The position numbers and the translations under genes were made by a program. Of a DNA stretch of 64,000 bases, positions 3,001 through 56,431 are shown piece by piece. This DNA is from Cupriavidus sp. 2SB. GTDB lineage: Bacteria; Pseudomonadota; Gammaproteobacteria; Burkholderiales; Burkholderiaceae. The DNA is taken from the NCBI RefSeq assembly GCF_005503625.1, contig NZ_SCMX01000029.1, positions 1-64,000 on the forward strand, read 5' to 3'. The notes under the pieces were generated by a model that made no database searches, was not told the DNA's origin, and saw nothing but the letters and a program-made list of their open reading frames with translations. Numbering within the stretch: position 1 is the first letter of the stretch; every line of letters begins with the position of its first letter.

Positions 3001-6000
3001 CCACGCTGTCCCGGCCATCCCATTCGCAGAGCGTGCGGGCCAGCGCGGCCAGCAGGATGTCGTTGATCTGCGTGCGGTATGCCTGCGGCACCTCGTTGAG
3101 CAACTGGCGCGTCGTTGCCTCGTCGAGCGTGACGCTCAGTGCGTGCGCATCGGCCACGGTGTTGCTGCCGCCCGCCTTTGTGGGGAAGCTGCGTGATTCG
3201 CCCTGTTCGACGTGCCACTGCGCCTGCCAGTAAGGCAGTTCGGCGGCCATCGCGGCACTACCGGCGTGGCGTTGCAGCGTTTCGACCCATGCCTGCAGCG
3301 TGCTGGTCGACGGCGGCAATGTCACTGCCTGCCCTTGCCCGAGTTGCTCGTACGCGGCGTGGAGATCTTCGACGATCACGCGCCACGACACGCCATCCAC
3401 CACCAGGTGATGGGCGGCCAGCAGCAGCCGGCCCGGGCGCGACGGCCCGAGGTCGATCCACACGGCCTGGAAAGGGCGGGACAGGTCGAGGCTGCGCTGG
3501 ACGGCATCCGCTGCCTCCGCGATGGCCTGCGATGCATCCTCGGCGTCCGCCTGCGACACCACCTTGAACGATGACGTCCCCAACGCGGCCAGCGATTGTT
3601 GCCATGCGCCGTCGCGCTGCGCGAACCGTAGCCGCAATGCGCCGTGTTGGTCCACCACATGCGCCACGGCGCGGCGTACCCGTTCGACATCGACCGGCGC
3701 GCTGCTCTCCAGCATCAGCGACTGGTTCCAGTGGCTGGTGGCAAACGGATGCGCGGCGGCGTGGGCGAAGAACCAGTGCTGGGCCGGCGTCAGGGCGAAC
3801 CAGGTTTCGGTGGCCAACGTCGCGGCCGGCGCCGGTACGGCAGCGCTCTGCACGCGCGTTGCCACGGCCGCGACCGCTGAAACGGTCTGCCCTTCCATCA
3901 ACTGGCGCGGTGTCAGCTTCACGCCGCGACGGCGGGCCCGCGCCACGATCTGCAGCGTCAGGATCGAATCTCCGCCCAGTTCGAAGAAATTGTCGTGACG
4001 GCCCACGCGCGCCACGCCGAGGATCTCTGCCCAGATGGCAGCCAGCGTGGTTTCGACTTCACCCTCTGGCGCCGCGAACCCGTCGCCGTCGTCGCCCTGC
4101 TGCGCTGCGGGTTCTGGCAACGCGCGGCGATCCACCTTGCCGTTTGGCGTCAGCGGCAGCGCGTCGAGCACCATGATGGCGGCCGGCACCATGTAGTCCG
4201 GCAGCGTCGCGGCCAGTTGCTCGCGCAGGCTTGCCACATCGGGGTGGCCCTCGCCGTTGCCCACCACATAGGCGTGCAATTGCGTGCGCCCATCATCGGC
4301 GTCGCGGGCAATCACCTCGGCGCGGCTCACGCGCGGCAAGGCCGCCAGCGCCTGCGCCACCTCGCCCAGTTCCACGCGATAGCCGCGCACCTTGACCTGA
4401 TCGTCCACCCGACCGAGGAATTCGAGGCTGCCGTCCTCGCGCATCCGCACGCGGTCGCCCGTGCGATACAGCCGCGCGCCATCGCCCATCGGATTCGCCA
4501 CAAAGCGCTCGGCGGTCTGTGCGGCACGCCTCTGATAGCCACGCGCCAGTCCGGCCCCACCCAGGTACAGCTCGCCCACGCCACCGCGCGGCACGGCATT
4601 CAGGCCCGCATCCAGCACGTAGGCGGCATTGCCCGCCAGCGGATGGCCGACGGGCAACGTCGCGGCGGCGCGGTCCGCCGTGGCGGCCTCCTGCGTCAGG
4701 ATGCCCACCGTGGTTTCAGTCGGGCCATAGTGGTTCATGACGCGCGTTTCCGGGCGCAGTTCGGCGATGCGCGCCAGCAGCGGCCAGCGCGTAGCCTCGC
4801 CGCCCAGCACCAGCCGCGCACGCGGCAGCACCGCCGCAGCGTGCTGGGCGCTCAACAACGCCTGCAGATGGCCCGGCACGATCTTGAGCACGTCCACGGC
4901 ATGGCGGTCCATGTAGTCCGCAAACCGGTCCGGATCGAAGGCACGCTCCGGCGCGAGCATATGAAGCAGACGCCCGGAGCACAGCGCGCCGAACAGCACC
5001 GTATGGCCCAGATCGGCGCCCACGGTCGAGGCCATTGCCATGCTGCGCGCTGTCTCGGGCAGGTCCATCCGCTGCAGCACGGCCCGCACGTAGTTGGCAA
5101 GCGCGCCATGGCTGATGACCACGCCCTTGGGCTGCCCGGTCGAGCCGGACGTGTAGATCAGATAGGCCGGCAACGCGGGATGCGGCGCGGCGTCCAGCAA
5201 CGCCGGCAGCGCCTGCGCATCACCGGAGTCGGTCAGGGACATCACGGGAACGCCAAAGCCGCTGGCGTTACCGGTTGCATCGAGCACCAGCGATGCCTGG
5301 CTATCGTCGACCACGTAGGTCAGGCGCGATGCCGGCAATGCGGGATCGAGTGGCACATACGCGCCACCGGCCTTGAGCACCGCCAGCAGGCCCAGCACCA
5401 TTTCGATGGAGCGCTGCGCATGCACGCCCACGCGCGATTCCGCGCCGATGCCCTGCGCGCGGAGCCGTTGCGCCAGCCGGTTGCTGCGCGCGTCGAGGTC
5501 CGCGAACGTGACACTGCGGGCGCACTGATCCACCTCGTCGGCCACGGCCTGCGCGGCAGGGGTGCGACGCACGGCATCGCGCCAGAGGGCCAGCACATTC
5601 GGGGCGGGCTCTGCGGCCGGCGCGTGCGCCACGACAGGAACGGGGGCGAGCGCGCCCAGTGCCACGTCCGGGTGCTGCTGTCCCACGCGGACCATGTCAT
5701 GCAGCACGCTGTCGAAGGCGTCCGCGATGCGTGCGGCCATGGCCTCATCCACGTGCGCCAGATCGTGCAGGTAATCGAAACTCAACGTGGCGCCGGTCTT
5801 CACGCGCAGCGTCAATGGATAGTGATTGCCGTTGCCAGAACGGACATCGGTAAATGTCAGTCCGGCCGGGTTGCGCGACAGTGCTTCGTCCACGGGATAG
5901 TTTTCGAAGACGATGATGGTATCGAACAGCCCCTGCCCGCTGGCACCGGCCGCGCGCTGGATGTCATGCAGCGGCAGGAACTCATGCTCGCGCGAGGCGA

Positions 6001-9000
6001 TACTCTGGGCCTGCAACGTATCAAGCCAGGCATTCAGCGCATCGCCGGGGCGCGGCTGCGCCACCACGGGCAGCGTGTTGATAAAGAGTCCGACCATGCG
6101 CTCGACACCCGGCACATCCATCGGACGTCCCGCCGTGGTCGCGCCAAAGCACACGGCGTCCTGACCGGTGAGACGTTGCAGCAGGATGGCCCATGCGCCT
6201 TGAATCAGCGTGTTCAGCGTGACGCGGCGCGTCCGCGCAAACGCCTGCAGGCTGTCGTTCCGCGCCGCGTCGAGCACGCGCGGATAAGCGCGGTAGCCGT
6301 GGCGACCCACCGGGGCGGTCAATGCATCGGCCACGCGAGTGGGTGCGGTGAGGATCGCCAGTCGACTGCCCCAGTAGCTGCGCGCTGCGGCGGTGTCCTG
6401 CTGTCCCAACCAGCCGATGTAGTCGCAGTAGCGCGCGGTCTGGGGCGGCAGCGACTGGCCGGCATAGTGACTCAGCACCTCGCCGAGCAGTTGCGACGTG
6501 CTCCAGCCATCGAGCAGCAGATGGTGATGGGTCCAGATCAGGTGATGGCGTGTGGCGCCGATGCGTACCAGCGCCAGCCGCATCAGCGGCGGTTGCGCCA
6601 GATCGCAGCCCTGGTCGCTCTCGGCCTGCGCCAGCGTGTCCAGCGCCGGAGCGAGATCGTGGGGCGCCTCGGCTTCGACCCCATCGACCACGGTCAGCGG
6701 CAACGGCACGGTCCGTGCCACCCATTGCAGTGGCGTTTCGCCGGCGAGGAAGCCGGTCCGGAGAATGTCGTGCCGGTCCAGCACGGCCTGCCACGCCGCG
6801 CGGAAGCGTTCGACATCGAGGTGGTCGATATCGGCGCGCAACTGGTTCAGATACGTATCGCCCTGCGCCGCGTGGGCACTCAGGAACAGCATGCCGGTCT
6901 GCATCGGCGCCAGCGGGTACAGGTCCGCGATGTCAGCCGCATCCACTGGCAAGGCCAGCGTGTCGAGCGCTGTTTGCGTCAGGCCCGCCAGCGGGAAGTC
7001 CGATGGCGAGACACCGCGCGCACCGCTGGTGCAATGCGCGATCAACGCCTGCAGCTCGCGCTGGAAGCTGGCGGCAAGGGCCTCCATCGCCGGGCGCGCG
7101 TGGCGGTTGCGGCTGTAGTGGACTGTCAGCGTCAGCGTCTGGTCGTAGACCTGACCATTGATCGCCAGCGCGTGCATCAGCGGCGCGTCGGCATCCATGG
7201 CAGGACCGGCGCTTTCGTTGGCGGGTTTCCAGCCGTTTTCCGCATCGAACGCACCGTCGAACTGGCCCAGGTAGTTGAAAACGACTTCCGGACGCGGTAA
7301 GGCCTTCATCGCCGCCTGCTGCGCGGGGGTGCCTATTTCGCGCAGCACGCCATGGCTCAGGCTACGTCCCGGTACGGCGCGCAGGTGTTCCTTGACGCGT
7401 CGCAGCGCATCACCCGGTTCGCCCAGCGGCGCCAGCGCCACCGGATACAGGCTCGTGAACCAGCCGACCGTACGCGAGATATCGAGGTCAGACACGGCGT
7501 CGCGGCCATGGCCTTCGAGATCGACAAGGATCTGGTCGCCACCGGTCCAGCCGCACAGCGCACGGCCCAGTGCCGTGAGCAGGATGTCGTTGACTTGCGT
7601 GCGATAGGCGGCCGGTGCCTCGCGCAGCAATGCCGACGTGGCGGCTGCGTCGAGCGTCAGCGTGACACTGTCGCGCTCGCCAACCGTGCCGAAGGCTGCC
7701 GCGCCATCGCGTGGCAGCGCCACCGGCACGTTGCGCAATGCCTCCCACGCAGGCAAATCGGCGGCGTGCGACTCGGCATGGTCGCGCAGTGCCAACGCCC
7801 ACGTCTGCACACTGGCTGTGCGCGGTGGCAACGCCACGGACTGGCCCGCGCATCGTTGCTGATACGCGGTGCGGAGATCGTCGAGCAGGATGCGCCATGA
7901 CACGCCATCGACCGCCAGATGGTGGATCACCAGCAGCAGCCGGTAGGCAGGCGCGGCGTCATCGATCTCGATAGAGACTGCGCGCACGAGCGTGCCGGTG
8001 TTCAGGTCCAGGCTGCGTTGGGCCTCGGCGCACAGCGCATCGAGACCGTCTGCCGGGGTCTGCCGTGTCCACAACACGTCGTGCCTCGGCGTGCTACCGG
8101 CGGCCGCACACGTCTGGTGCCAGTGGCCGTCCACATCGCAAGTGAACTGCATGCGCAGCGCGTCGTGATGGGCGATCAGCGCGGCCAGTGCCTCGCGCAT
8201 GGGCTGCGCGGCGATGGGGGCGGCCGATTGCAGCAGCACCGCCTGATTCCAGTGGTGGCGCACTGGCATGTCCATGCCGAAGAAAGCGGCCTGGAATGGC
8301 AGCAGTGGCACATCGCCCGAAGCCGGCGCGTGTTCACGCACCGCCAGTTGGGCGGGGACGGCCACGGCAGCCAGTCGGGCAAGCGTCTGCGACTCGAACA
8401 TCTGGCGCGGCGTCAGTTGCCACCCGGTACGCCCTGCGCGCGACACGATCTGCAAGCTGATGATGGAATCGCCACCCAGTTCAAAGAAGTTGTCGTGACG
8501 GCCCACGCGTTGGATGCCGAGCACCTCCGCCCAGATGGCAGCCAGCGCGATTTCCGCTTCGCCTTGCGGCGCTTCGTAGCTGGCCTGCGTTTGCGCTTCC
8601 GGTGCCGGCAGCGCCTTGCGATCCAGCTTGCCGTTGGCGTTCAGCGGCAGACGATCGAGCACCATCAACGCGGACGGCACCATGTACTCGGGCAATGCTT
8701 CACCGAGCCTGACACGCATCGCCTGCGCATCGAGCGACTGCCCTGCCCGGCATGCCACGTAGGCCACCAGTCGCGTGCCGCCTACGGCAACCACCACCGC
8801 CTCCGCCACTTCGGGCAGCGCCAGCAACTGCGCCTCGATCTCGCCCAGTTCGATCCGCAGGCCACGGATCTTCACCTGATGGTCTATCCGCCCCAGGTAT
8901 TCCAGTTGCCCATCGGCACGCCAGCGCACCAGATCGCCCGTGCGATACAGGCGCCCGCCTGCCTCGAAGGGATCGGCCACGAAGCGCTCGGCGGTCAGGC

Positions 9001-12000
9001 CCGGACGACGCAGATAGCCGCGCGCCAATCCCACGCCGCCCAGATACAACTCGCCCGCCACGCCCTGCGGCACGCGGTTCAGGCTACCGTCGAGCACATG
9101 CGTGCGGATGCCCGACAGCGGTCGGCCAATCGGCACTTGCCGCCCTTCGGCGCGGCAGTTCCAGTACGTGACGTCGATCGCCGCCTCGGTCGGGCCATAG
9201 AGGTTGTCGAGCGAGACCCACGGCAAACGCGCCAGCACCTGCGCCTGCACTTCTGCGGGCAACGCCTCGCCGCTGCACACGATGCGCCGCACGCTGCGGC
9301 AGGCTTCCACGCCATCGTGGGCCATGAATGCGGCCAGCATCGACGGCACGAAGTGCAGCGTGCTCACGTCATGCGCCGCAATGCGCGCCACGAGCCGCGC
9401 CGGATCGCGATGCTCGCCCGGTGCTGCCAGCGCCAGACGCGCACCGGCCATCAGCGGCCAGAAGAACTCCCAGACCGAGACATCGAAGCTGAACGGGGTC
9501 TTCTGCAACACGGTGTCCGACGCGCTCAGTGCATACGCCTGCTGCATCCACGCGAGCCGGTTATGCAGCGCGCCGTGCCGATTGGCCGCGCCCTTGGGGC
9601 GTCCCGTGGAGCCCGAGGTGTAGATCACGTAGGCCAGGCTCTCGGCGTGCAGCGGCACCGCTGGCGCGTAGGTCGGCCACGCATTCCAATCGAGCGTATC
9701 GAGATCGAGCCACGTGGCGGCCAGCCGGGCCGGCACCCGTTCGCGCAGATGCGACTGCCCGAGCAGCAGCGACACCGCGCTGTCCTCGACCATGTACGCG
9801 ATGCGCTCGGCCGGATACTCGGGATCGATGGGCACATAGGCGCCACCGGCCTTGAGGATGCCGAGCAGGCCCACCACCATCTCGATCGAGCGTTCGGCCA
9901 CGATGCCCACGGGCATCTCGGGACGCACGCCCAGTGCGATCAGTTGATGCGCCAACCGATTGGCACGCGCATCCAGCTCCGCGTAGCGCAGCGATTGCTC
10001 GCCGAACACCAGGGCCACTGCATCGGGCGTGGCCGCTGCCTGTCGGGCAATGAGGTGATGCACCGGCTCCGGCGTGCCGTGCGTATCCGTGTTGATGCCC
10101 CAGCCATCGAGCCGCGCGCCTTCCTCGGCGCCCAGCAGCGGCACATCGGCCACAGCCGTATCGGGCTGCGTGGCGAGCGCTTGCAGCATGGCTTCGTAGT
10201 GCGCCGCCATGCGCGCCATGGTCTCCGGCTCGAACAGTTCGGCGGCATAACGCAGCGTCAGTTGCAGCGTGCCGTCGTCGTGTTCGATGGAGTCGAGGAC
10301 CAGTTCGAACTGTGCGGCCTGTGCGCCAACGGCCCACGGCGTCACCGACAGATCGCTCGACCCGGCCAGCGCGGCCAGCGCGGCGCGGTTGTCACGCTGG
10401 TGATTGAACATGACCTGGAACAGCGGCGGATGGCTCAGGCTGCGCTCCGGCTGCAGCGCATCCACCAGTTGCTCGAATGGCAGGTCCTGATGGGCCTGCG
10501 CGCCCAGCGCAGCTTCGCGGGTCTGTGCCAGTGCCTGCGCCAGTGTCATGCGCGGGTCGGCTTGCAGCCGCATCACCTGCGTATTGACGAAAAGCCCGAC
10601 CGTGTCCTGCACATCGGCACGATGCCGGTTGGCGATGGGCACGCCCACGCGAATATCGGCCAGCCCGGTGTAGCGCGACAGCAGCGTCTGGAACGCCGTC
10701 AGCAGCGCCATGAACACGGTGGCGCCGCTGGCCTGCGCACGCTGGGCCAGTGCATCGCGCACGGTTCTGGGCAGCGTCGCCACGTGGCGTGCCTCGCGGT
10801 AGCCGTCGGCGGCCAGCCGGGGGGCGTCGGCGGGCAGTTGCAGCACCGGATGATCGTGGCCAAGCTGCGTGCGCCAGTAGTCGAGTTGGCGGGTCTGCTC
10901 GGCGGCATCGAACCAGCCGCGCTGCCATGCCGCATAGTCCACGTACTGGACGGCCAGCGGTGCCACCGGCAACGCCTGCCCGTTCCGCAGCGCGCCGAAT
11001 CGCGTCACGAACTCGTCGACGATCACGCGCATCGACCAGCCATCCGAGGCAATGTGATGCATCACCACGACCAGCCGATGGTCGTCATCGGCCATGCGGA
11101 TCAGCGCCGCACGCACCGGAATCTGGCCTTCGAGATCGAATGGCGTCAGCGCCAGACGGGCGGCCTCGTCCGTGGCCGATGCCTCGGCGCCCGCAGTGTT
11201 CCGCAGGTCGATCACCGGCACGTCGAACGTCGCCTCCGGCAGCACCCGCTGCATGGCCTTGCCATCGGCATCGGCCACGATCACCGTGCGGAATGCTTCG
11301 TGCCGCGCCACCACGGCACGCAGTGCCTGCACCAGCAGATCGATGTCGAGCGCGCCCTGCAAGCGCAGGCCACCGGCGATATGGTTGGCCGTGCTGGCAG
11401 GGTCCAGCTTCCAGAGGAACCACTGGCGTGCCTGCGCCGGCGACAGCGGTTGCGGATCGAAACGAACATCGTCGGCCAACCGGGGCATGGCGGGCAACGG
11501 CGCCGCGTCGGACTGTGCGACGGCCACGGGCGCCACGGCAGCGGCGTGTGCCGCGGCGAGCGCCGCCAGCGTCTGGTGCTCCAGCAACTGGCGCGGCGCC
11601 AGCTTGATGCCCTGCTTGCGTGCGCGGGCCACCACCTTGAGGCTCAGGATGGAATCGGCGCCCAGTGCGAACACATTGTCGCTGCGCCCCACGCGCGCCA
11701 CGCCCAGCACCTCGGCCCAGATCGCGGCCAGCTTCTCTTCGAACTCGCTCTGCGGCGCTTCGTAGCGCGAGCCGCCATCGCGTTCCGGACGCGGCAATGC
11801 CTTGCGGTCGATCTTGCCGTTGGCGTTCAGCGGCAGTGCATCGAGCAGCACGATCGCTGCCGGCACCATGTAGTCGGGCAGTGTCGCGGAGAGCCGCTCG
11901 CGCAACGTGTTGGCATCGGCGCTGCCCACCACATACGCGCACAGCATCGCGCGGCCATCGTCGGCCTGGTCCGCCAGCACCTCGGCCTCGGCAACGCCCG

Positions 12001-14758
12001 GCAGGGCCAGCATGGCGCGGCGCACCTCACCGGGCTCCACCCGATAGCCGCGAATCTTGACCTGGTCATCGACCCGGCCCAGGAACGCAAGGCTGCCATC
12101 GGGCAGCATGCGCACCTTGTCGCCGGTCCGGTACATGCGCTCGCCCGCGCGCAGCGGATGGGCGACAAAGCGTTCGGCGGTCTGTCCGGGACGGGCCGCG
12201 TAACCGCGCGCCACGCCGGGGCCGGACAGGTACAACTCGCCCGCCACGCCCTGCGCCACCGGGTTCATGTCGGCGTCGAGCACCATGGCCTTGCCGTTGG
12301 CAAGCGGCTTGCCCAGCGGCAGGCCCGCCGCCGTGCGATTGGCCGTCTGGCCGTCCTGCGTCAGCACGCCCACCGTGGTCTCCGAGGGACCATAGTGATT
12401 CATCACGGCACAGCCGGGGCGCAGCGCGTGGATACGGTCGAGCAGATCCCACGAGGTGGACTCGCCGCCAAGCACCAGCAAATGGCGCGGCAACACCGAC
12501 GCGGCATCGCGGGCCTGCAGCAGGGCCTGCAGATGGCTCGGCACGATCTTGAGCGCATCCACGCCGTGCGCGGCCATGTACTCGCCGAAACGGTCGGGAT
12601 CGAACGCACGCTCGCGGCTGATCAGGTGCAGCGTCCGTCCGCTGCACAGCGCGCCGAAGAAGCTCGTGTGCCCCAGGTCGGCGGCCACCGTGGAGATCAT
12701 CGCCAGGCTCCCGGCTTCCGCCGGCAGCGCCATCCGGTCCAGCACGGCACGCACATAGTGTGTGAGCGCGCCACGCGCGACCGTGACACCCTTTGGCTGG
12801 CCCGTGGACCCCGATGTGTAGATCACGTAGGCGGCCTGCGCCGGATGAACCGGCGCAGGCTGCCAGTCCGGCACCATGGCCGGCGCCTCGCCCTCGCAAG
12901 TCAGCGGCCAGACTTCGATATCGGCCGTCCACGCCGGCGCCACGGCGGCAAGCAGCAATGCGGCGCCGCTGTTCTCCACCTGATAGGCCAGACGGTCGGC
13001 CGGCAGTTGGGGATCGAGCGGGACATAGGCGGCACCGGCCTTGAGCACGGCCAGCACACCCAGCACGAAGGCATTCGAGCGTTCGGCGAGGATGGCGACA
13101 CGGCTCTCCGCGCCGATGCCATGCGCCTGCAGCTTGCGAGCCAGCGCGCTGGCGCGGGCATCGACGCTGGCGAAGTCATGACCGCCAGACTCGTCGTGAA
13201 CGGCGAGCCGCGCAGGCACATCGCGCACGGCCTGATCCCACGACGCCATGAGGTCTGCCACGGCGAACGTTTGCGCGGGACCGCACAGCGCCGTCTGCGC
13301 GCCCGGTACGCGATAGGCGGCCAGCGGCAATGTCGGCGCGGTCACCGCCTGCTCGGCGATGGCAGCCAGTGCGGTGCCAAAGCGCGCGATGGTAGCTTCG
13401 TCGAAGCGTGCGGCAGCGTAGGCCAGTACGCATTCGATACCGTCCTGGCGATCCGTGAAATCGAAGCTCAGGTCGAAGTGGGCATGGCCGCCGCTCAGTT
13501 CCTCGATCCGGATCTCAAGGCCCGCTGCGTGGAAGTTCGCGGGCCGGTCCTGCTGCTCGGTGCACTTCACCTGGAACAGCGGATGCACGCCCGGCTGACG
13601 CTCCGGCGCCAGCGCATCGACAAGCATCTCGAAGGGCAGGTCCGGATGTGCCTGTGCGTCGAGCACGGCATCGCGCACACGGGCCAGCAGTGATGCGAAC
13701 CCTTCGCGTGCATCCAGCTCGGCGCGGATCACCTGGACATTGAGCAGGCAGCCGATCAAGCCCAGCGTCTCGGCTTTTTGCCGGCTCGCCAATGGCGATC
13801 CCACGCGCAGATCGGACTGTCCACCGTGCCGATACAGCGCCACGTCCAGCAGCGCGAGCATCACCATGTACACCGAGGCGCCCTGGGCACGGGCCAGTGC
13901 GCGCAGGCGCTGGCTCAGTTCGGCGGAAAGCACCATGCGGTGGCGCCCTTCGCGTGCGGCGAGATGGGCCGGCGCGGCAACGTCGCGCTCGCGGTCGAAC
14001 GGCAGCACGGCGATGGCGTGGACGTCGCCAAGACGCCCGGTCCAATGCGCAAGCTGCCGCTCGGCCACGCCAGCTTCGAGCCAGTTGCGTTGCCATACGG
14101 CGTAGTCGGCGTACTGGATCGGCAGCGGGGGCGGCGCGGCCACGCCGCCCTGTGTCAGCGCCTGGTAGTGGCCGAGCAGTTCGTCGATGGCAATGCGGAT
14201 CGACCAGCCATCGGCGGCGATGTGGTGGACAGACAGCGCCAGCACATGCTCGGCATCGCCGGTCTGGAACAGCGCGGCACGGATCGGTGCCGCGATATCC
14301 AACTGGAACGGCTTTTCGCGGAAGGTGTCGAGCCGCACGCGGAGCGTCGCTTCGGTGTCTTCACCGCGCAGATCTTCGAACGGCAGCGGTAAATCGACGT
14401 GTTCCAGCACATGCTGGGACGCCTCGCCATCGTCGGCCACACGGTAAACGGTGCGCAGGATGTCGTGCCGCCGGGTCAATCCGTTCAAGGCTGCGTGCAG
14501 TGCCGTGCGATCCAGTGTGCCGCGCAGATGCAAGGCGCCCGGCAGGTTGTAGGCCGGGCTCGTGGGATCGAGCTGCCAGGTGAGCCACATGGCGCGCTGC
14601 GCGTACGAGAGCGGCAGCGGCGCATCGCGGCGGGCCGGAACGATCGGCAGCTCGGCCGCGCTCAGGCCCATGGCTTCGAGCTTGCTCAGGAATTCGCGGC
14701 GGGCTTGCGGTGCCAGTGCGGCGAAACGTTGCGCGATCTGTTGTGCGTCCAATGCCAT
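1..14758 (-). CDS. Giant siderophore-type NRPS, C-A-T-C-A-T-E-C-A-T-E-C-A, cut by the left edge
   Basis: The frame is open without a stop from the ATG at 14758 to base 1, about 4,919 residues, so the C-terminus lies outside. Approximate domains are C1 45-470, A1 490-990, T1 1005-1075, C2 1110-1540, A2 1560-2050, T2 2065-2130, E1 2150-2590, C3 2610-3030, A3 3060-3560, T3 3570-3640, E2 3660-4110, C4 4130-4550 and A4 from 4570. All C and E domains keep HHxxxDG; the E domains carry EGHGR and NYLGQFD. By alignment to GrsA, A1 and A3 read DLTKVGHVG (Asp), A2 reads DVWHVSLID (Ser) and A4 reads DGEDHGTVT. I cannot assign A4 securely; its acidic pocket suits a basic residue such as an ornithine derivative. 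The start lies 2 bases after the stop of the upstream NRPS gene, implying coupling. A terminal thioesterase is not visible in the window. Confidence 0.93.
8475..10291. repeat. Direct repeat copy 1: serine A-domain unit in giant NRPS module 2
   Basis: About 1,817 bases match 14969-16785 at a constant offset of 6,494. Only two or more differences are seen near the 8,550 end and none was noticed over the following 1.7 kb. The repeat covers the last part of a condensation domain, the whole Ser-coded A domain and the start of the T domain. Confidence 0.93.
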
Positions 14759-14760
14759 GG

Positions 14761-17700
14761 TTATTCCAGTCCTTCCAGTGCGTTGAGCAGGTCGTCCATT
14801 GCAGACAGGCGCTGCTGCTGGCCACCCAGCGTGTTGGTGTCGCTGGCGGCGATATGTCTGGCGAGCGCGTGCGGCGTGGGGTGATCGAACAGGTGCCGCA
14901 TCGGGAGATCCCATCCGTGGCGGGACACGAGCAGCGCACTGACGCGCACCGTGGACAGCGAATCGCCGCCCAGTTCAAAGAAGTTGTCGTGACGGCCCAC
15001 GCGTTGGATGCCGAGCACCTCCGCCCAGATGGCTGCCAGCGAGATTTCCGCTTCGCCTTGCGGCGCTTCGTAGCTGGCCTGCGTTTGCGCTTCCGGTGCC
15101 GGCAGCGCCTTGCGATCCAGCTTGCCGTTGGCGTTCAGCGGCAGACGATCGAGCACCATCAACGCGGACGGCACCATGTACTCGGGCAATGCTTCACCGA
15201 GCCTGACACGCATCGCCTGCGCATCGAGCGACTGCCCTGCCCGGCATGCCACGTAGGCCACCAGTCGCGTGCCGCCTACGGCAACCACCACCGCCTCCGC
15301 CACTTCGGGCAGCGCCAGCAACTGCGCCTCGATCTCGCCCAGTTCGATCCGCAGGCCACGGATCTTCACCTGATGGTCTATCCGCCCCAGGTATTCCAGT
15401 TGCCCATCGGCACGCCAGCGCACCAGATCGCCCGTGCGATACAGGCGCCCGCCTGCCTCGAAGGGATCGGCCACGAAGCGCTCGGCGGTCAGGCCCGGAC
15501 GACGCAGATAGCCGCGCGCCAATCCCACGCCGCCCAGATACAACTCGCCCGCCACGCCCTGCGGCACGCGGTTCAGGCTACCGTCGAGCACATGCGTGCG
15601 GATGCCCGACAGCGGTCGGCCAATCGGCACTTGCCGCCCTTCGGCGCGGCAGTTCCAGTACGTGACGTCGATCGCCGCCTCGGTCGGGCCATAGAGGTTG
15701 TCGAGCGAGACCCACGGCAAACGCGCCAGCACCTGCGCCTGCACTTCTGCGGGCAACGCCTCGCCGCTGCACACGATGCGCCGCACGCTGCGGCAGGCTT
15801 CCACGCCATCGTGGGCCATGAATGCGGCCAGCATCGACGGCACGAAGTGCAGCGTGCTCACGTCATGCGCCGCAATGCGCGCCACGAGCCGCGCCGGATC
15901 GCGATGCTCGCCCGGTGCTGCCAGCGCCAGACGCGCACCGGCCATCAGCGGCCAGAAGAACTCCCAGACCGAGACATCGAAGCTGAACGGGGTCTTCTGC
16001 AACACGGTGTCCGACGCGCTCAGTGCATACGCCTGCTGCATCCACGCGAGCCGGTTATGCAGCGCGCCGTGCCGATTGGCCGCGCCCTTGGGGCGTCCCG
16101 TGGAGCCCGAGGTGTAGATCACGTAGGCCAGGCTCTCGGCGTGCAGCGGCACCGCTGGCGCGTAGGTCGGCCACGCATTCCAATCGAGCGTATCGAGATC
16201 GAGCCACGTGGCGGCCAGCCGGGCCGGCACCCGTTCGCGCAGATGCGACTGCCCGAGCAGCAGCGACACCGCGCTGTCCTCGACCATGTACGCGATGCGC
16301 TCGGCCGGATACTCGGGATCGATGGGCACATAGGCGCCACCGGCCTTGAGGATGCCGAGCAGGCCCACCACCATCTCGATCGAGCGTTCGGCCACGATGC
16401 CCACGGGCATCTCGGGACGCACGCCCAGTGCGATCAGTTGATGCGCCAACCGATTGGCACGCGCATCCAGCTCCGCGTAGCGCAGCGATTGCTCGCCGAA
16501 CACCAGGGCCACTGCATCGGGCGTGGCCGCTGCCTGTCGGGCAATGAGGTGATGCACCGGCTCCGGCGTGCCGTGCGTATCCGTGTTGATGCCCCAGCCA
16601 TCGAGCCGCGCGCCTTCCTCGGCGCCCAGCAGCGGCACATCGGCCACAGCCGTATCGGGCTGCGTGGCGAGCGCTTGCAGCATGGCTTCGTAGTGCGCCG
16701 CCATGCGCGCCATGGTCTCCGGCTCGAACAGTTCGGCGGCATAACGCAGCGTCAGTTGCAGCGTGCCGTCGTCGTGTTCGATGGACTCCAGCATCAGTTC
16801 GAACTGGGCATTGCCATGCGGCAGGTCGATGCGCGAAACGGCCAGGCGGGGCCAGCCGGACAACGCGCTGTCATCGCGCCGCACGTGGTTGAACATCGCC
16901 TGAAACAGCGGATGGTGGCCGGGCGTGCGTTCCGGCTGCAACGCCTCCACCAGTTGCTCGAACGGCAGGTCCTGGTTTGCCTGGGCGTCGAGCGCTGCGG
17001 CGTGGATGTGGTGCAGCACCTGCCCCAGCGTCACGCGCGCGGCCATGCGCGATTGCAGCACCACCGTGTTGATGAAGAAGCCCACGACACCAGCGGTTTC
17101 CGCGCGATTGCGGTTGGCAAACGGCACGCCGGTCCGGATCACCGGCAGATCGGCGTAACGGTGCAGCAGCGCGTGAAAGGCAGCGAGCAGCACCGAGAAC
17201 AACGTGCTGTCGGCCGCCTGCGCGCGCTGGCGCAACTGGGCCAGCAGCGCGGGCGGCACAGCAAAGACATGCGCCGCAACGTGATAGCCCGCCGATGCCA
17301 GACGGGGCCGGTCCGTCTGCAGCGACAGCACCGGATGCGCATCGCCAAGCTGCGTGCGCCAGTAACCGAGTTGACGCGCCTGTTCGCCGTCCTTGAGCCA
17401 GTCACGCTGCCACTCGGCGAAATCGGCATAGTCGATGTCAGGCGGCGGCAGTGCCTCGACACGCCCGGCCACGTGAGCGCGATAGGCGCGCGACAGATCC
17501 GCGAGGATCACCTGCGTCGAGACGGCGTCCGACACGATGTGATGCATCACCACCACCAGCTCGGCATCGTTGGCCGCGCGCTGGCACAGCGCCACACGCA
17601 TGAGCGGGCCACGCTCCAGATCGAACGGCGTATCGCACAGGCGACGGATGGCGCCGTGCGATGCCGCGTGGTCCACCACTTCCAGCACGATGTCAGCGGT

Positions 17701-50926: not shown

Positions 50927-52699
50927 CTATACCAAATAATTGCTAGGCACATCGCCCGCCAACGATGCATCACGTAGCCCGAACGATTGGGACAAAATAT
51001 GCTGGGCGAAGAAGAGTGCCGTTGCAATCTTGGCCTCGGAGAAAGCCGGATCATCTGCCCGTCTCGCGTCCGCGACGAGCATGGCGCGGCCAAGCTGCCA
51101 GCCCGAGAAGACAATGCCGCATAGCTTCAGGTACGGCACGCTGCCGGCAAACACAGCGTTCGGGTCCGACTTTGCATTGGCAACAACGAATTCAACTACG
51201 GCCTCCAACGCGGCACGCCCCCTAGCCAGATGCTCCTTCACCGTCGCAAATGCGGCACCTCCATGCTTGCCCAGGGCCGCTTCGGTTTCGGCAATGCTGG
51301 CGCAGATGGCGCGCGCCACTGCACCGCCGTCGCGCACGGTCTTGCGCCCCACCAAGTCGTTCGCCTGGATTGCTGTTGTACCTTCATAGATCGGCAGGAT
51401 GCGTGCATCACGGTAGTGCTGGGCAGCGCCGGTTTCCTCGATGAAGCCCATGCCGCCATGCACTTGCACGCCGAGGCTGGTCACATCGATCGATAGTTCA
51501 GTGCTCCAGCCTTTCACGATCGGCACCAGGAACTCGTAGACCGCCTGGTTCTGCTTGCGCACGGTCTCGTCCGGATGATTCTGCGCAGCGTCGCTGGTAG
51601 CGGCAGCCACGTAAGCCACCGAGCGGGCACCTTCGATCAGACTGCGCATTGTCATGAGCATGCGCTTGACGTCGGGGTGGTGGACGATTGCCACCGCCTC
51701 GCGCGCCGAACCGTCGACCGGACGGCCCTGCACACGCTCCCGCGCATAGGCAACTGCCTGCTGGTAGGCGCGCTCGGAGACGGCGATGCCCTGCATTCCA
51801 ACCGCAAATCGCGCCGAGTTCATCATGACGAACATGTACTCCAGGCCGCGATTTTCTTCACCGACCAATGTGCCAATGGCACCGCCATGGTCGCCGAACT
51901 GCAAGATCGCGGTCGGGCTGGCCTTGATGCCCAACTTATGCTCGATCGATACACAATGCACATCATTGCGCGCGCCCGTGGAGCCATCCGCATTGACCAG
52001 GAGCTTGGGCACGATGAAGAGCGAGATGCCCTTCACACCTTCCGGCGCATTGGGTGTGCGGGCCAACACCAGGTGGACGATGTTGTCCGCCATATCGTGT
52101 TCCCCATACGTGATGAAAATCTTGGTGCCGAAGACCTTGTAGGTGCCGTCACCCAGCGGCTCGGCGCGCGCCCGTACTGCAGCCAGGTCGGAGCCTGCCT
52201 CGGGCTCCGTCAGATTCATCGTGCCAGTCCACTCGCCGGAGATCAGCTTGGGCAGGAATATCGCCTTCTGTTCCTCAGATCCCGCTGTCAGCAGCGCCTC
52301 AATAGCGCCATCGGTAAGCATCGGACACAGTGCAAATGACAAGTTTGCCGAATGCAACATCTCCTGGCATGCCGTCGCCAGCAACTTTGGCAGTCCTTGC
52401 CCACCAAATTGCGGCGGATGCAGTATCCCTTGCCAGCCCCCTTCCCCGAACTGGCGAAACGCGTCACTGAACCCCGGCGTCGAAACCACCGCGCCTTCAC
52501 TCCAGTGGCTTGGTTCAAGATCACCAATGCGATTCAGCGGTGCAATGACCTCCTCACTGAACCTGGCCGCTTCCTCCAATACTGCGCATGCGACATCCCA
52601 TGATGCGTCTTCGCATCCAGGCAGCGCGTTAACAGTCTCAAAACTCGCGATCGCGTCCAAAGTGAAATGCATCTCTTTTAATGGTGCGCGGTACGTCAT
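50927..52699 (-). CDS. Acyl-CoA dehydrogenase with C-terminal extension
   Basis: The 590-residue flavoprotein starts TYRAPLKEMHF, typical of the long (about 590-600 residue) acyl-CoA dehydrogenases. It contains the FAD/substrate motif TMNLTEPEAGSDL at about 155, GVQVHGGMGFIEE near 410 and the catalytic Glu in YEGTTAIQAND. It oxidises acyl-CoA to 2-enoyl-CoA with electrons to ETF. A GAGGAAG site sets the start at 52699. The truncated phosphotransferase gene lies upstream on the same strand; that pairing is common in Burkholderiaceae fatty-acid loci, so this gene may once have been part of a larger operon that the adjacent rearrangement cut off from its promoter. Confidence 0.94.
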   Translation of the reverse strand: MTYRAPLKEMHFTLDAIASFETVNALPGCEDASWDVACAVLEEAARFSEEVIAPLNRIGDLEPSHWSEGAVVSTPGFSDAFRQFGEGGWQGILHPPQFGGQGLPKLLATACQEMLHSANLSFALCPMLTDGAIEALLTAGSEEQKAIFLPKLISGEWTGTMNLTEPEAGSDLAAVRARAEPLGDGTYKVFGTKIFITYGEHDMADNIVHLVLARTPNAPEGVKGISLFIVPKLLVNADGSTGARNDVHCVSIEHKLGIKASPTAILQFGDHGGAIGTLVGEENRGLEYMFVMMNSARFAVGMQGIAVSERAYQQAVAYARERVQGRPVDGSAREAVAIVHHPDVKRMLMTMRSLIEGARSVAYVAAATSDAAQNHPDETVRKQNQAVYEFLVPIVKGWSTELSIDVTSLGVQVHGGMGFIEETGAAQHYRDARILPIYEGTTAIQANDLVGRKTVRDGGAVARAICASIAETEAALGKHGGAAFATVKEHLARGRAALEAVVEFVVANAKSDPNAVFAGSVPYLKLCGIVFSGWQLGRAMLVADARRADDPAFSEAKIATALFFAQHILSQSFGLRDASLAGDVPSNYLV

Positions 52700-52829
52700 C
52701 GGGAACTTCCTCTGTTGGGGGTAGATCGCCTCAGCGCCGGAATTGACTGCGAACTCACGCAACTCCGATTTTTGCCAGCCCTTCCGTCATCCGTGGCAGG
52801 CAGCGCCATTGTTTGGTCTGCAATATCGA

Positions 52830-53567
52830 CTATTGAATCAGTCGCCGCCCGGCTTGATAGCGCATCGCGAAATGCCAACCCAGTTCTGCCATGGGCCCAG
52901 CCTTGCGGCCGGTTTCAACCGCATCAGCAGCCGCCGCATTGCCTTGCCGCGCCCTCTCTGCGATGCCGAACATGATGGCAGCCAGTCGGAAGAGGTTGTA
53001 TGCGATGTAGAAATCCCAGTGCTCCATACCAGCGGTGCCATTGGCTTCGATATACCACTGCATATATGTCGTTTCGCTCGGTATCCCAAGGCTTGGGAGG
53101 TCGAGATCGGCAACTCCGCGCCATAGCGTTGACGGGATGTGCCAGCTCAGGCAGTGATAGGCAAAGTCGACGAGCGGATGTCCGAGTGCCGACAACTCCC
53201 AATCCAATACCCCGATGACTCTCGGCTCGCTCGGGTGGAAAACCAGGTTGTCCAGCCGGAAATCACCGTGAACGAGACGTGTCTCTTCGATTTCAGGGAT
53301 GTTCCTCGGAAGCCAGTTCATCAGCGCTTGCATGGCAGAACTGTCACCGGCGCCCGTGGTGCGGCACTGACGCGTCCATCCAGCAATCTGGCGCGCAAGG
53401 AAATTGCCGTGCGGACTGTAATCACAGAGTCCAACCTGTTCGACGTCAATGCGGTGGAGGGAAGCCAGTACGCGATTCATCTCTGCGTAAATGGCGTTGC
53501 GCTGCTCGGGCTGCATACCCGGCAACGACTGGTCCACCAGCACCCTGCCGTCCAGGTACGCCATCAA
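52830..53567 (-). pseudogene. Phosphotransferase (APH/ACAD10-like), N-terminus missing
   Basis: About 245 residues from [17 protein letters not shown] onward match the central and C-terminal parts of the APH-fold phosphotransferases found beside acyl-CoA dehydrogenases. The catalytic loop HGDFRLDN and metal site DWELSALG are intact. The roughly 100 N-terminal residues, which include the nucleotide-binding lobe and its Lys, are absent. At about 53567 the sequence switches abruptly into an inverted piece of a symporter gene. The remaining frame has only TTG or internal ATG starts, so a working kinase is unlikely. Confidence 0.85.
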
Positions 53568-53949
53568 ATAGAACGGCCAAGGACAGCAGCATCAGCAGAG
53601 AGCCGCCAAACATCAGTAGCACAGCCTTGATGATCTGGACCCACGTTGTCGCGACCATGCCACCCACAGTCACATAGATCATCATCAGCGCGCCCACTCC
53701 GACCACGGCGTAAGCATAGTCGATGCCGAACAGCAACTGGACCAACTCGCCAGCGCCTACCATTTGTACGATCAGGTAGAGCAGCACGACCACCAGGCTG
53801 CTGCCGGCAGCGACGCAGCGCGTGCTGACCGGGTCGAGACGGTCCGAGATGATATCCACAAAGGTGAATTTTCCGAGGTTGCGTAACCGCTCGGCCATCA
53901 GGAACAGCATCACCGGCCAGCCAATGAAAAAGCCGACGATGTACAGTAT
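53568..53949 (-). pseudogene. Inverted middle segment of an ActP-type sodium:solute symporter gene
   Basis: Read on the minus strand this segment encodes [20 protein letters not shown], a stretch with FVDIISDRL, then [18 protein letters not shown] and [13 protein letters not shown], the unmistakable middle membrane segments of the ActP/acetate permease family. The rest of the same protein lies on the opposite strand from 53950. Flipping this segment would place its end (LLSLAVL) directly before HFDFSFE, the next part of the protein. It therefore lies inverted relative to the C-terminal part. It has no start, no N-terminal segments and no stop of its own, since its left end fuses into the phosphotransferase. 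Confidence 0.88.
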
Positions 53950-54927
53950 CACTTCGATTTCAGCTTCGAAACCCTTGCCGCCAGGGCGGTTGCTGTACAT
54001 CACAGCGGCGCTGCCCTGCTCGCCCCCGGCACGCTGTTCGCCGATCCAATCTCCACGCTTTCCCTGTGTATGGCGACGGTACTCGGCCTGTCCGGGCTTC
54101 CGCACATTCTGATGCGCTTCTTTACGGTGCCGAATGCGCGCGAGGCGCGCAAGAGCGTGCTGGTGGCGAGCACTTGTATCGGCTACATGTTCCTCGCCAT
54201 GTTCGCAATCGGGCTCGCGGCCATCGTCATTGTCGGCACTGACCCTCAGTACTTTGAAGGCGGTCAAGTCGGAGGGAAGTTGCTCGGCGGTAGCAACATG
54301 GTCGCGATGCATCTCGCCAGCGCAACCGGAGGCAACGTGTTTCTCGGGTTCCTGGCGGCAGTCGCATTTGCCACGATTCTCGCCGTGGTTTCGGGTCTGA
54401 CGTTGGCGGGCGCCGCCGCGATCTCACATGACATCTACGCCAGTGTATTGTGCCGCGGCACCGCCACCGAGGCTGCGGAGATCGCCGTCACCAAGAAAGC
54501 CACGTTGATCATCGGCGTCATCGCGGTGCTGTTGGGGATCGGCTTTCGTGGGCAGAACCTCGCGTTCCTGGTCGCGCTTGCATTCAACGTTGCAGCCTCC
54601 GCCAATTTCCCGGTGCTGGTACTGTCGATGTACTGGCGCGGCCTGAGCAGCCGTGGCGCGGTCTGGGGCATCGTGGCCGGCCTGGTGTCATCTGTCACGC
54701 TCGTCGTCCTCTCCCCTGCAGTCTGGAAGAACGTGTTGGGACACCCCACTGCCATCTTTCCCTATGATCATCCTGCGCTGTTCACAGTCCCATTTGCGTT
54801 CCTGATCACCTATCTGTGCTCGCGCTTCGACACCAGTGCGCGAGCGAAAGCCGAGCGACAGGCGTTTGACGCGCAACTGGTGCGCGCACATACCGGCCAT
54901 GGCGCTGCGGCCGCTGCCAAGCACTGA
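53950..54927 (+). pseudogene. C-terminal part of ActP-type sodium:solute symporter
   Basis: The frame from HFDFSFE (53950) through [26 protein letters not shown] and VLSMYWRGLSSRGA to the stop at 54927 is 326 codons and uninterrupted, matching the C-terminal half of acetate permease-type (SSS family) symporters. The N-terminal half is missing, and the middle part is inverted immediately upstream. An internal ATG at 54070 could only start a fragment of about 285 residues, too short for a working transporter. The frame shows no decay, so the rearrangement looks recent. Confidence 0.87.
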
Positions 54928-55002
54928 CGCCCAGCACCCAACAGCGACGGCCATCCGTGATGGATGGCCTCAGCGCGCTTCACGAATGAACCAGGACAAT
55001 CC

Positions 55003-55821
55003 ATGCATTCTCCTTCGAACAATATCCCCGAGATGATGACGGCCGTCGAGATCACGCATCCTGGTGGCCCGGAAGTACTGGTGCCCACACGGCGACCTGT
55101 GCCTGTGCCCGGCCCGGGCGAACTACTGATCCGTCATCAGGCGGCTGGGATCAATGGCCCGGATGTATTTCAGCGCAAGGGGCTGTACGACCCGCCTCCT
55201 GGCGCCTCCGACATTCCCGGTCTCGAAGTCGCAGGAGAAGTTGTGGCCATCGGCGCTGGCGTGACAAGATTCCAGGCAGGTGACCTCGTTTGTGCATTGA
55301 TCCCTGGGGGTGGCTACGCTGAATATGGCGTCGCCAACGAGCACAATACGCTGTATCTACCCAAAGGCTTGCGACCGGTGGAAGCCGCTGCCATGCCGGA
55401 AACGTTCATGACGGTATGGCTGAATCTGTTCCAGAGGGGGCAGTTCAAACGGGGCGACTCGGTGTTGATCCATGGCGGCGCATCCGGCATCGGTACTGCG
55501 GCCACCATGCTCAGCAAGGCTTTCGGCGCGGCGAAGATCATTACCACCGTCGCCACGGCAGCGCAACGCGACGCCAGCCTCGCCCTCGGCGCTGACTATG
55601 CCGTCAATTATCTTGAAGAGGATTTTGTCGACGCTGCCATGCGCGTCACCGACGGCAAGGGTGTTGATATCGTAGTTGATATCATCGCCGGCGATTATGT
55701 CCCCAGGAACTACGCCGCTGCGGCCATTAACGGGCGTATTGTGCAGATCGGCGCGTGCGCGGCGGGACCAGCTTGGTCTGGATCATGGCTGGTGGCCATT
55801 GTGGCTGGTTCGCTGCGATAG
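55003..55821 (+). pseudogene. Zeta-crystallin/PIG3-type quinone oxidoreductase, C-terminus missing
   Basis: The frame encodes the N-terminal catalytic domain and most of the NAD(P)H-binding domain of an MDR-superfamily quinone oxidoreductase: GPGELLIRHQAAGINGPDV, DIPGLEVAGEVVAIG, and the nucleotide motif HGGASGIGTAA. It then reads AAAINGRIVQIGA and departs from the family near 55755, ending 20 residues later. Homologues continue for about 60 further residues that cover the substrate side. None of the other frames downstream shows the missing part, so this is a true truncation rather than a simple frameshift. AGGA precedes the ATG. Confidence 0.75.
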
Positions 55822-56431
55822 CTGGTGAGGATCGGGACATCAGACGCGCTGGTAGTTGGTGGGGTTCGCTAGACGATCACATCCCATTCGTTAAGTCTGC
55901 TCAAGTCGCACCATCTCGACGGCAGACTCAGGTCTTACGGTGCGGTAGCGATGTGAGTCGGCGACGATGACTTCAATCATCTGCTTGGCAACGCTCTGCG
56001 CCACCTCAAATGCCGCAAGCACTGCTATCGAAGACCCGTCGCACTACGTGCGATGGGAACGTGTGCCACCGGCCCGGTCTCTGCCGAGGTGACTGCGGGT
56101 ACCACTACGGTAGATGATCGCCCAAACGAAAGGCGGGCCACAAGCGCATGGGAGTCCAACAGAGGGGGGGAAGGCGGGGGGCTCTCCAAGCCATGCCATT
56201 TTCTCGCTATTGCCGAGCGTCCATTGTGCGGTGCCAAAGACTCCTGCGCTTTTGCAGAACCCTGCTTCGACATCGCCTACATTGCTAAGACCTGACTCTG
56301 GCTGCCCCCCCCCAAACAGGGAGGCTTCTTGCTATCGCCGCAACGATGCGCGGATCATTGCGTTAGCGAGACTTGTTTCTCCATCTGCCGAACCAGCAGG
56401 TGCGAGATACATTCAACCAAGGAATCCCGCC
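55822..56431. other. Degenerate intergenic stretch without a convincing gene
   Basis: About 610 bases lie between the truncated oxidoreductase and the crotonase gene. The only coding-like piece is a minus-strand open stretch of about 50 codons ending at 55891 (AKQMIEVIVADSHRYRTVRP), with no clear start and no recognised family. G and C homopolymers of 7-9 bases occur near 56163-56178 and 56307. It may be the remains of a mobile element or deleted gene, but no inverted ends or transposase motif were seen. Confidence 0.4.

Follow-up and report, generated by a model that had tools for sequence, protein, structure and literature searches.

The stretch of DNA analysed here (the window) is 64,000 nucleotides long and belongs to the draft assembly of Cupriavidus sp. 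2SB, which comprises 6.98 Mb in 174 contigs and has catalogue values of 100% completeness and 0% contamination. It contains the remains of a kinase gene and of a symporter gene, with the middle part of the symporter gene lying backwards between the kinase and the rest of the symporter. The features of the locus are as follows, with the evidence for each in brackets.

50930-52762, minus strand: acyl-CoA dehydrogenase of the same cluster, frame open throughout (Pfam; collinear UM1 homologue).
52830-53576, minus strand: C-terminal part of an APH-family (aminoglycoside phosphotransferase-like) kinase, the N-terminal part being lost (Pfam APH profile 75-216 of 239, matched on 52830-53567; alignment to the intact YR651 gene at 5694-6440).
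53576/53577: junction J1, between the kinase and the inverted symporter piece (alignment, with seven relatives on the kinase side and nine on the symporter side).
53577-53948, minus strand: inverted 372-bp middle piece of an SSF/ActP-type symporter gene (minus-strand match to YR651 10145-10517, about 91%; UM1 match; Pfam SSF).
53948/53949: junction J2, between the far end of the inverted piece and the remaining symporter (alignment, with nine relatives on one side and eight on the other).
53950-54927, plus strand: C-terminal half of the symporter, frame open, without the start region (Pfam SSF profile 171-406 of 406; 90% identity to YR651 10519-11496).
54964-55753, plus strand: oxidoreductase of the zinc-binding dehydrogenase family, shortened by a separate simple deletion (UM1 182151-181337 and 178019; Pfam ADH_N and ADH_zinc_N).
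55754-56387, minus strand: pieces comprising the start of a MalT/LuxR-type regulator, a second SDR gene and intergenic DNA (YR651 14741-14970, 15275-15381 and 15857-16167; domains of the intact genes).

Matches to the Pfam SSF profile lie on opposite strands, with profile positions 43-166 on minus-strand 53446-53949 and positions 171-406 on plus-strand 53950-54924. In a BLAST comparison with YR651, window positions 52565-53576 correspond to 5444-6440 (plus), 53576-53957 to 10517-10136 (minus) and 53950-54927 to 10519-11496 (plus), and alignment to Cupriavidus pauculus UM1 gives the same layout. The initial annotation of this DNA had described a deletion combined with an inversion of the symporter middle, and this is borne out by Pfam, by the YR651 and UM1 alignments, and by ten relatives in the genus. 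It had placed a 380-bp inverted piece at 53568-53949; the inversion stands, but the piece actually occupies 53577-53948, so that its extent was off by up to 9 bases. Likewise, the fusion that it reported to a truncated kinase is real at the DNA level but not as a protein: the two pieces abut but are read in different minus-strand frames, so no fused protein results. Annotators should not call the minus-strand reading frame at 53446-54312 a gene.

The nearest relatives found are both Cupriavidus, namely strain YR651 (G017 C46 / L027, a 70,017-bp record) and C. pauculus UM1 (G012 C3 / L028, a 241,059-bp record). When 60 Cupriavidus genomes, including the source genome, were searched at a threshold of E<=1e-60, a match was found in 11, again counting the source. 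The intact order, present in 10 of the 59 other genomes, is kinase and SDR, both reading leftwards, followed by acyl-CoA ligase, DUF485 protein and SSF/ActP-type symporter, all reading rightwards. In all ten carriers the middle piece has its native orientation and adjoins the C-terminal half of the symporter, with the kinase 3.1-3.8 kb from it on one and the same contig. The comparison with intact relatives that had been proposed at the outset thus finds kinase and symporter in intact order in YR651 and UM1, and the arrangement of the window was not seen as a shared ancestral state in any of the ten genus carriers. The intact ancestor is reconstructed from relatives that are about 87-92% identical at the locus, no genome of the same species having been found. 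A second comparison set consisted of 59 loci, using a symporter reference of 523 residues. At 55 of these loci there is a single same-strand match running from before residue 40 to beyond residue 400; the remaining four (L082, L100, L115 and L116) have partial matches or two same-strand pieces, and none of these four has a minus-strand symporter match. In a plasmid collection 210 records match, and in none of them is 80% of the locus covered at a single place (best 10 of the 210 listed).

The gene content of the intact locus was read in YR651, where the DNA between the breakpoints holds the N-terminus of the kinase, the SDR, an AMP-binding enzyme of the acyl-CoA ligase type, the DUF485 protein and the N-terminus of the symporter. 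The lost DNA, both N-termini included, amounts to 3,704 bp, in both YR651 and UM1 coordinates. When the lost UM1 stretch is compared with the source genome, close matches are found at its two edges only (87% and 91%), and the assembly contains no close copy of the lost 3.7 kb elsewhere, the other matches having 64-71% identity and the best-scoring of them (on C1) 66%.

The junctions can be placed to within one or two bases. At J1 the kinase sequence continues up to 53576 and the symporter sequence begins at 53576, giving a 1-bp overlap (G), or 2 bp if G was the adjacent native base. At J2 the inverted piece ends at 53948 and the right flank begins at 53950, with 0 bp of microhomology. The base between them, a T at 53949, is at a position that is variable in the relatives (A, G or C, and T in none), and it may be either native to this lineage or a single added or changed base. 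At the cut point within the symporter that both junctions share, no more than one base was lost or changed. Among 100,000 inverted joins made at random from the UM1 locus, 55, 28 and 11% had overlaps of 0, 1 and 2 bp, and the observed overlaps lie within this distribution, in so far as two junctions can be judged. The microhomology that the initial annotation suggested looking for is thus only what random joins give.

No insertion sequence or remnant of one was found at the junctions: kinase sequence gives way directly to symporter sequence at J1, and one stretch of symporter to the other at J2, with 0-1 extra base. The region of YR651 surrounding the piece (L027:10040-10620) contains four inverted-repeat pairs, none of which has arms at both ends of the piece; one is an 8-nt pair whose arms lie 49 bases beyond one end of the piece and 26 bases within the other, and there is a palindrome 22 bases past the right end. 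UM1 has 46 inverted-repeat pairs near the piece (25 of the 46 listed). A search around the kinase breakpoint found no inverted repeats.

To the right of the symporter, the window shows further losses in comparison with UM1 and YR651: 3.3 kb at the end of the oxidoreductase (55753), with GGCG (4 bp) in common; 0.3 kb at 55976-55980, with ATCAT (5 bp) in common; about 0.5 kb at 56080; and 0.2 kb of intergenic DNA near 56385. The pieces within 55754-56387 are set apart by these collinear deletions. The window and C. numazuensis (L031) are collinear between symporter and oxidoreductase, so the 1.5 kb that lies there in UM1 need not represent a loss in the window. The 100 bp at 55981-56080 were considered as captured filler, and this was rejected: they have no close copy in their own genome and belong, in collinear position, to the second SDR gene.

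Two other observations may be recorded. In YR651 an internal part of this cluster's acyl-CoA dehydrogenase gene is missing (L027:5160-5447), with a 4-base overlap at the join. In the NRPS region of the window, 8466-10554 and 14960-17039 (about 2.1 kb each) are 96% identical, and 99% identical over the first 300 nt; the pair resembles the outcome of module duplication or gene conversion, and the draft assembly could err there.

For the kinase remnant and both symporter remnants, substitutions were counted as non-synonymous to synonymous (N/S) in unrooted trios, in which the window branch includes the stem. The window lineage has 29/117, and the YR651 and UM1 lineages together 36/87 (Fisher p 0.09). 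In a second trio (window, UM1 and G059) the counts are 27/78, 24/65 and 66/161, and the window lineage is again not raised. For the symporter half, the neutral expectation is about 2.27 non-synonymous changes to each synonymous one, with an assumed transition weight of 4:1. Even with zero non-synonymous change before the event, the neutral share of the window branch is at most about 16% (first trio); the second trio would give a looser bound. Neither the kinase piece nor the symporter pieces show a gap relative to YR651 or UM1. By these counts the remnants still show purifying selection, from which it follows that the event is recent, in agreement with the initial annotation, which had argued from the open frames.

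The most likely interpretation is that the locus carries a natural mutation scar of an ordinary kind, derived from the repair of broken DNA; it does not represent a new kind of system. We consider it probable that this was a recent non-homologous rearrangement with three breakpoints, most likely made by Ku/LigD end joining. The DNA would have broken three times within about 4 kb: once in the kinase (a) and twice in the symporter, near codon 74 (b) and near codon 198 (c). The stretch from a to b would then have been lost, the 372-bp fragment from b to c reinserted in reverse, and the ends of the fragment sealed to both flanks with almost no microhomology, the likeliest machinery being Ku/LigD joining of the broken ends. 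The resulting gene remnants would be non-functional pseudogenes. The proposal of one complex event, which deleted the kinase N-terminus, the intervening DNA and the symporter N-terminus and flipped the retained middle, had been made in the initial annotation, and is upheld by the intact order in relatives and by the loss of no more than one base at c.

The source genome encodes both Ku and LigD. Three Ku genes score above the family cut-off (contigs C91, C144 and C114), and there are two LigD polymerase domains (C91 and C114); on each of these two contigs about 2.8 kb separates the Ku domain from the LigD domain. However, the presence of Ku is no special pointer, since 56 of the 60 genus genomes have it, 11 of the 60 having at least three Ku matches, some of them fragments. 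C. necator has two Ku proteins, one of them plasmid-borne, according to the part of a Ku survey drawn on here (PMC11936186).

The main alternative, which had been raised as a possible mechanism from the start, is replication template switching. Here b to c would have been copied off the opposite strand by a fork or broken end, which then jumped to a, and three breaks would not be needed. We regard this as a possible but distinctly less probable route. Template-switch scars of the MMBIR/FoSTeS type combine a deletion with an adjacent inverted segment from one event, as is found here; if the template itself was broken at c, copying up to its end might also account for why c was used so exactly. 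J2 is straddled by a perfect 9-nt inverted repeat (53938-53946 / 53993-54001), which counts in favour of a switch, but repeats of this kind occur at about 2.4% of random window positions, and it is present in the derived arrangement only, both arms differing from the aligned Cupriavidus relatives. Template-switch junctions often have clear microhomology, and MMBIR-type events are defined by microhomology beyond chance at the switch points. Such an excess was not seen here, though two junctions give little power to see it. End joining fits slightly better, because the overlaps are no greater than in random joins and because Ku and LigD are encoded. This is a preference without proof: two junctions cannot separate the two mechanisms, and an overlap of 0-2 bp loosely fits both. 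Given the 4 and 5 bp of microhomology at two of the neighbouring deletions, another pathway may also have been active here.

It is unlikely that a simple inversion and a simple deletion occurred at different times, even though several simple deletions are already present at the locus. The second event would have had to end within one base of the first junction; the cut point, now represented at 53576 and 53949, lost no more than one base, a match that two independent events would have reached by coincidence, and for this reason one event is preferred over two. In addition, no intermediate was found in the ten genus carriers or the 59 loci, none of which is from the same species.

Rather less likely again is that the inversion and the deletions at 55753, 55980, 56080 and 56385 arose together in one local shattering of the chromosome, a bacterial mini-chromothripsis. 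Serial decay is the likelier history, because the SDR pieces are gapped relative to YR651 (3 gaps in one and 1 in the other) whereas the kinase and symporter are not, and because two of the deletions have 4-5 bp of microhomology. The SDR-region deletions look older than the inversion, on thin evidence; against this age stand the MalT piece, which has no gap relative to YR651, and the middle SDR piece, in which YR651 and UM1 already differ from each other by one gap.

An artefact of assembly or amplification is highly improbable: the assembly is a draft in 174 contigs, but an artefact would need two false joins as well as the absence of 3.7 kb from the whole assembly, in a genome catalogued as complete and uncontaminated. 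A programmed invertible element, whether an inverton or the target of a site-specific recombinase, has almost no probability: invertons are defined by inverted repeats that flank the inverted segment on both sides, and the locus resembles the intragenic kind in that a within-gene segment is inverted, but differs in that no YR651 repeat has arms at both ends of the piece, the inversion is coupled to the 3.7 kb loss, and re-flipping restores no whole gene.

The preferred reading, end joining at three breaks, can be compared with the repair of induced breaks in Streptomyces, as described in those parts of a published study used here (PMC5869714). Deletions there ranged from 191 bp to 23.6 kb, scars had 1-6 nt of microhomology in 50% of cases and nucleotide additions in 40%, and three scars had an inserted fragment, in two of them from nearby DNA. 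The scars of S. ambofaciens in that study were nuclease-induced and reportedly largely KuA-dependent, with inserts of 30, 42 and 83 bp at the central site and of up to 18.8 kb over all sites. The present locus is like these scars in the size range of its deletion, its scant microhomology and the joining in of a nearby fragment. Single bases are added in S. ambofaciens, while here an addition at 53949 is only one of two options; the present scar also differs in being natural, in having a 372-bp piece, and in that end joining is deduced. The resemblance to the Streptomyces scars is close, though it amounts to an analogy. A literature search covering titles and the openings of abstracts found no direct precedent for a natural deletion-inversion in bacteria, though one may exist in print.

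As a natural three-breakpoint deletion-inversion, the locus is a clean case: the bacterium encodes Ku and LigD, the breakpoints are located to within 1-2 bases, and intact relatives are available. With several simple deletions at the same locus, some of them probably older, it is a decaying accessory gene cluster, and serves as an example of the decay of a dispensable catabolic cluster.
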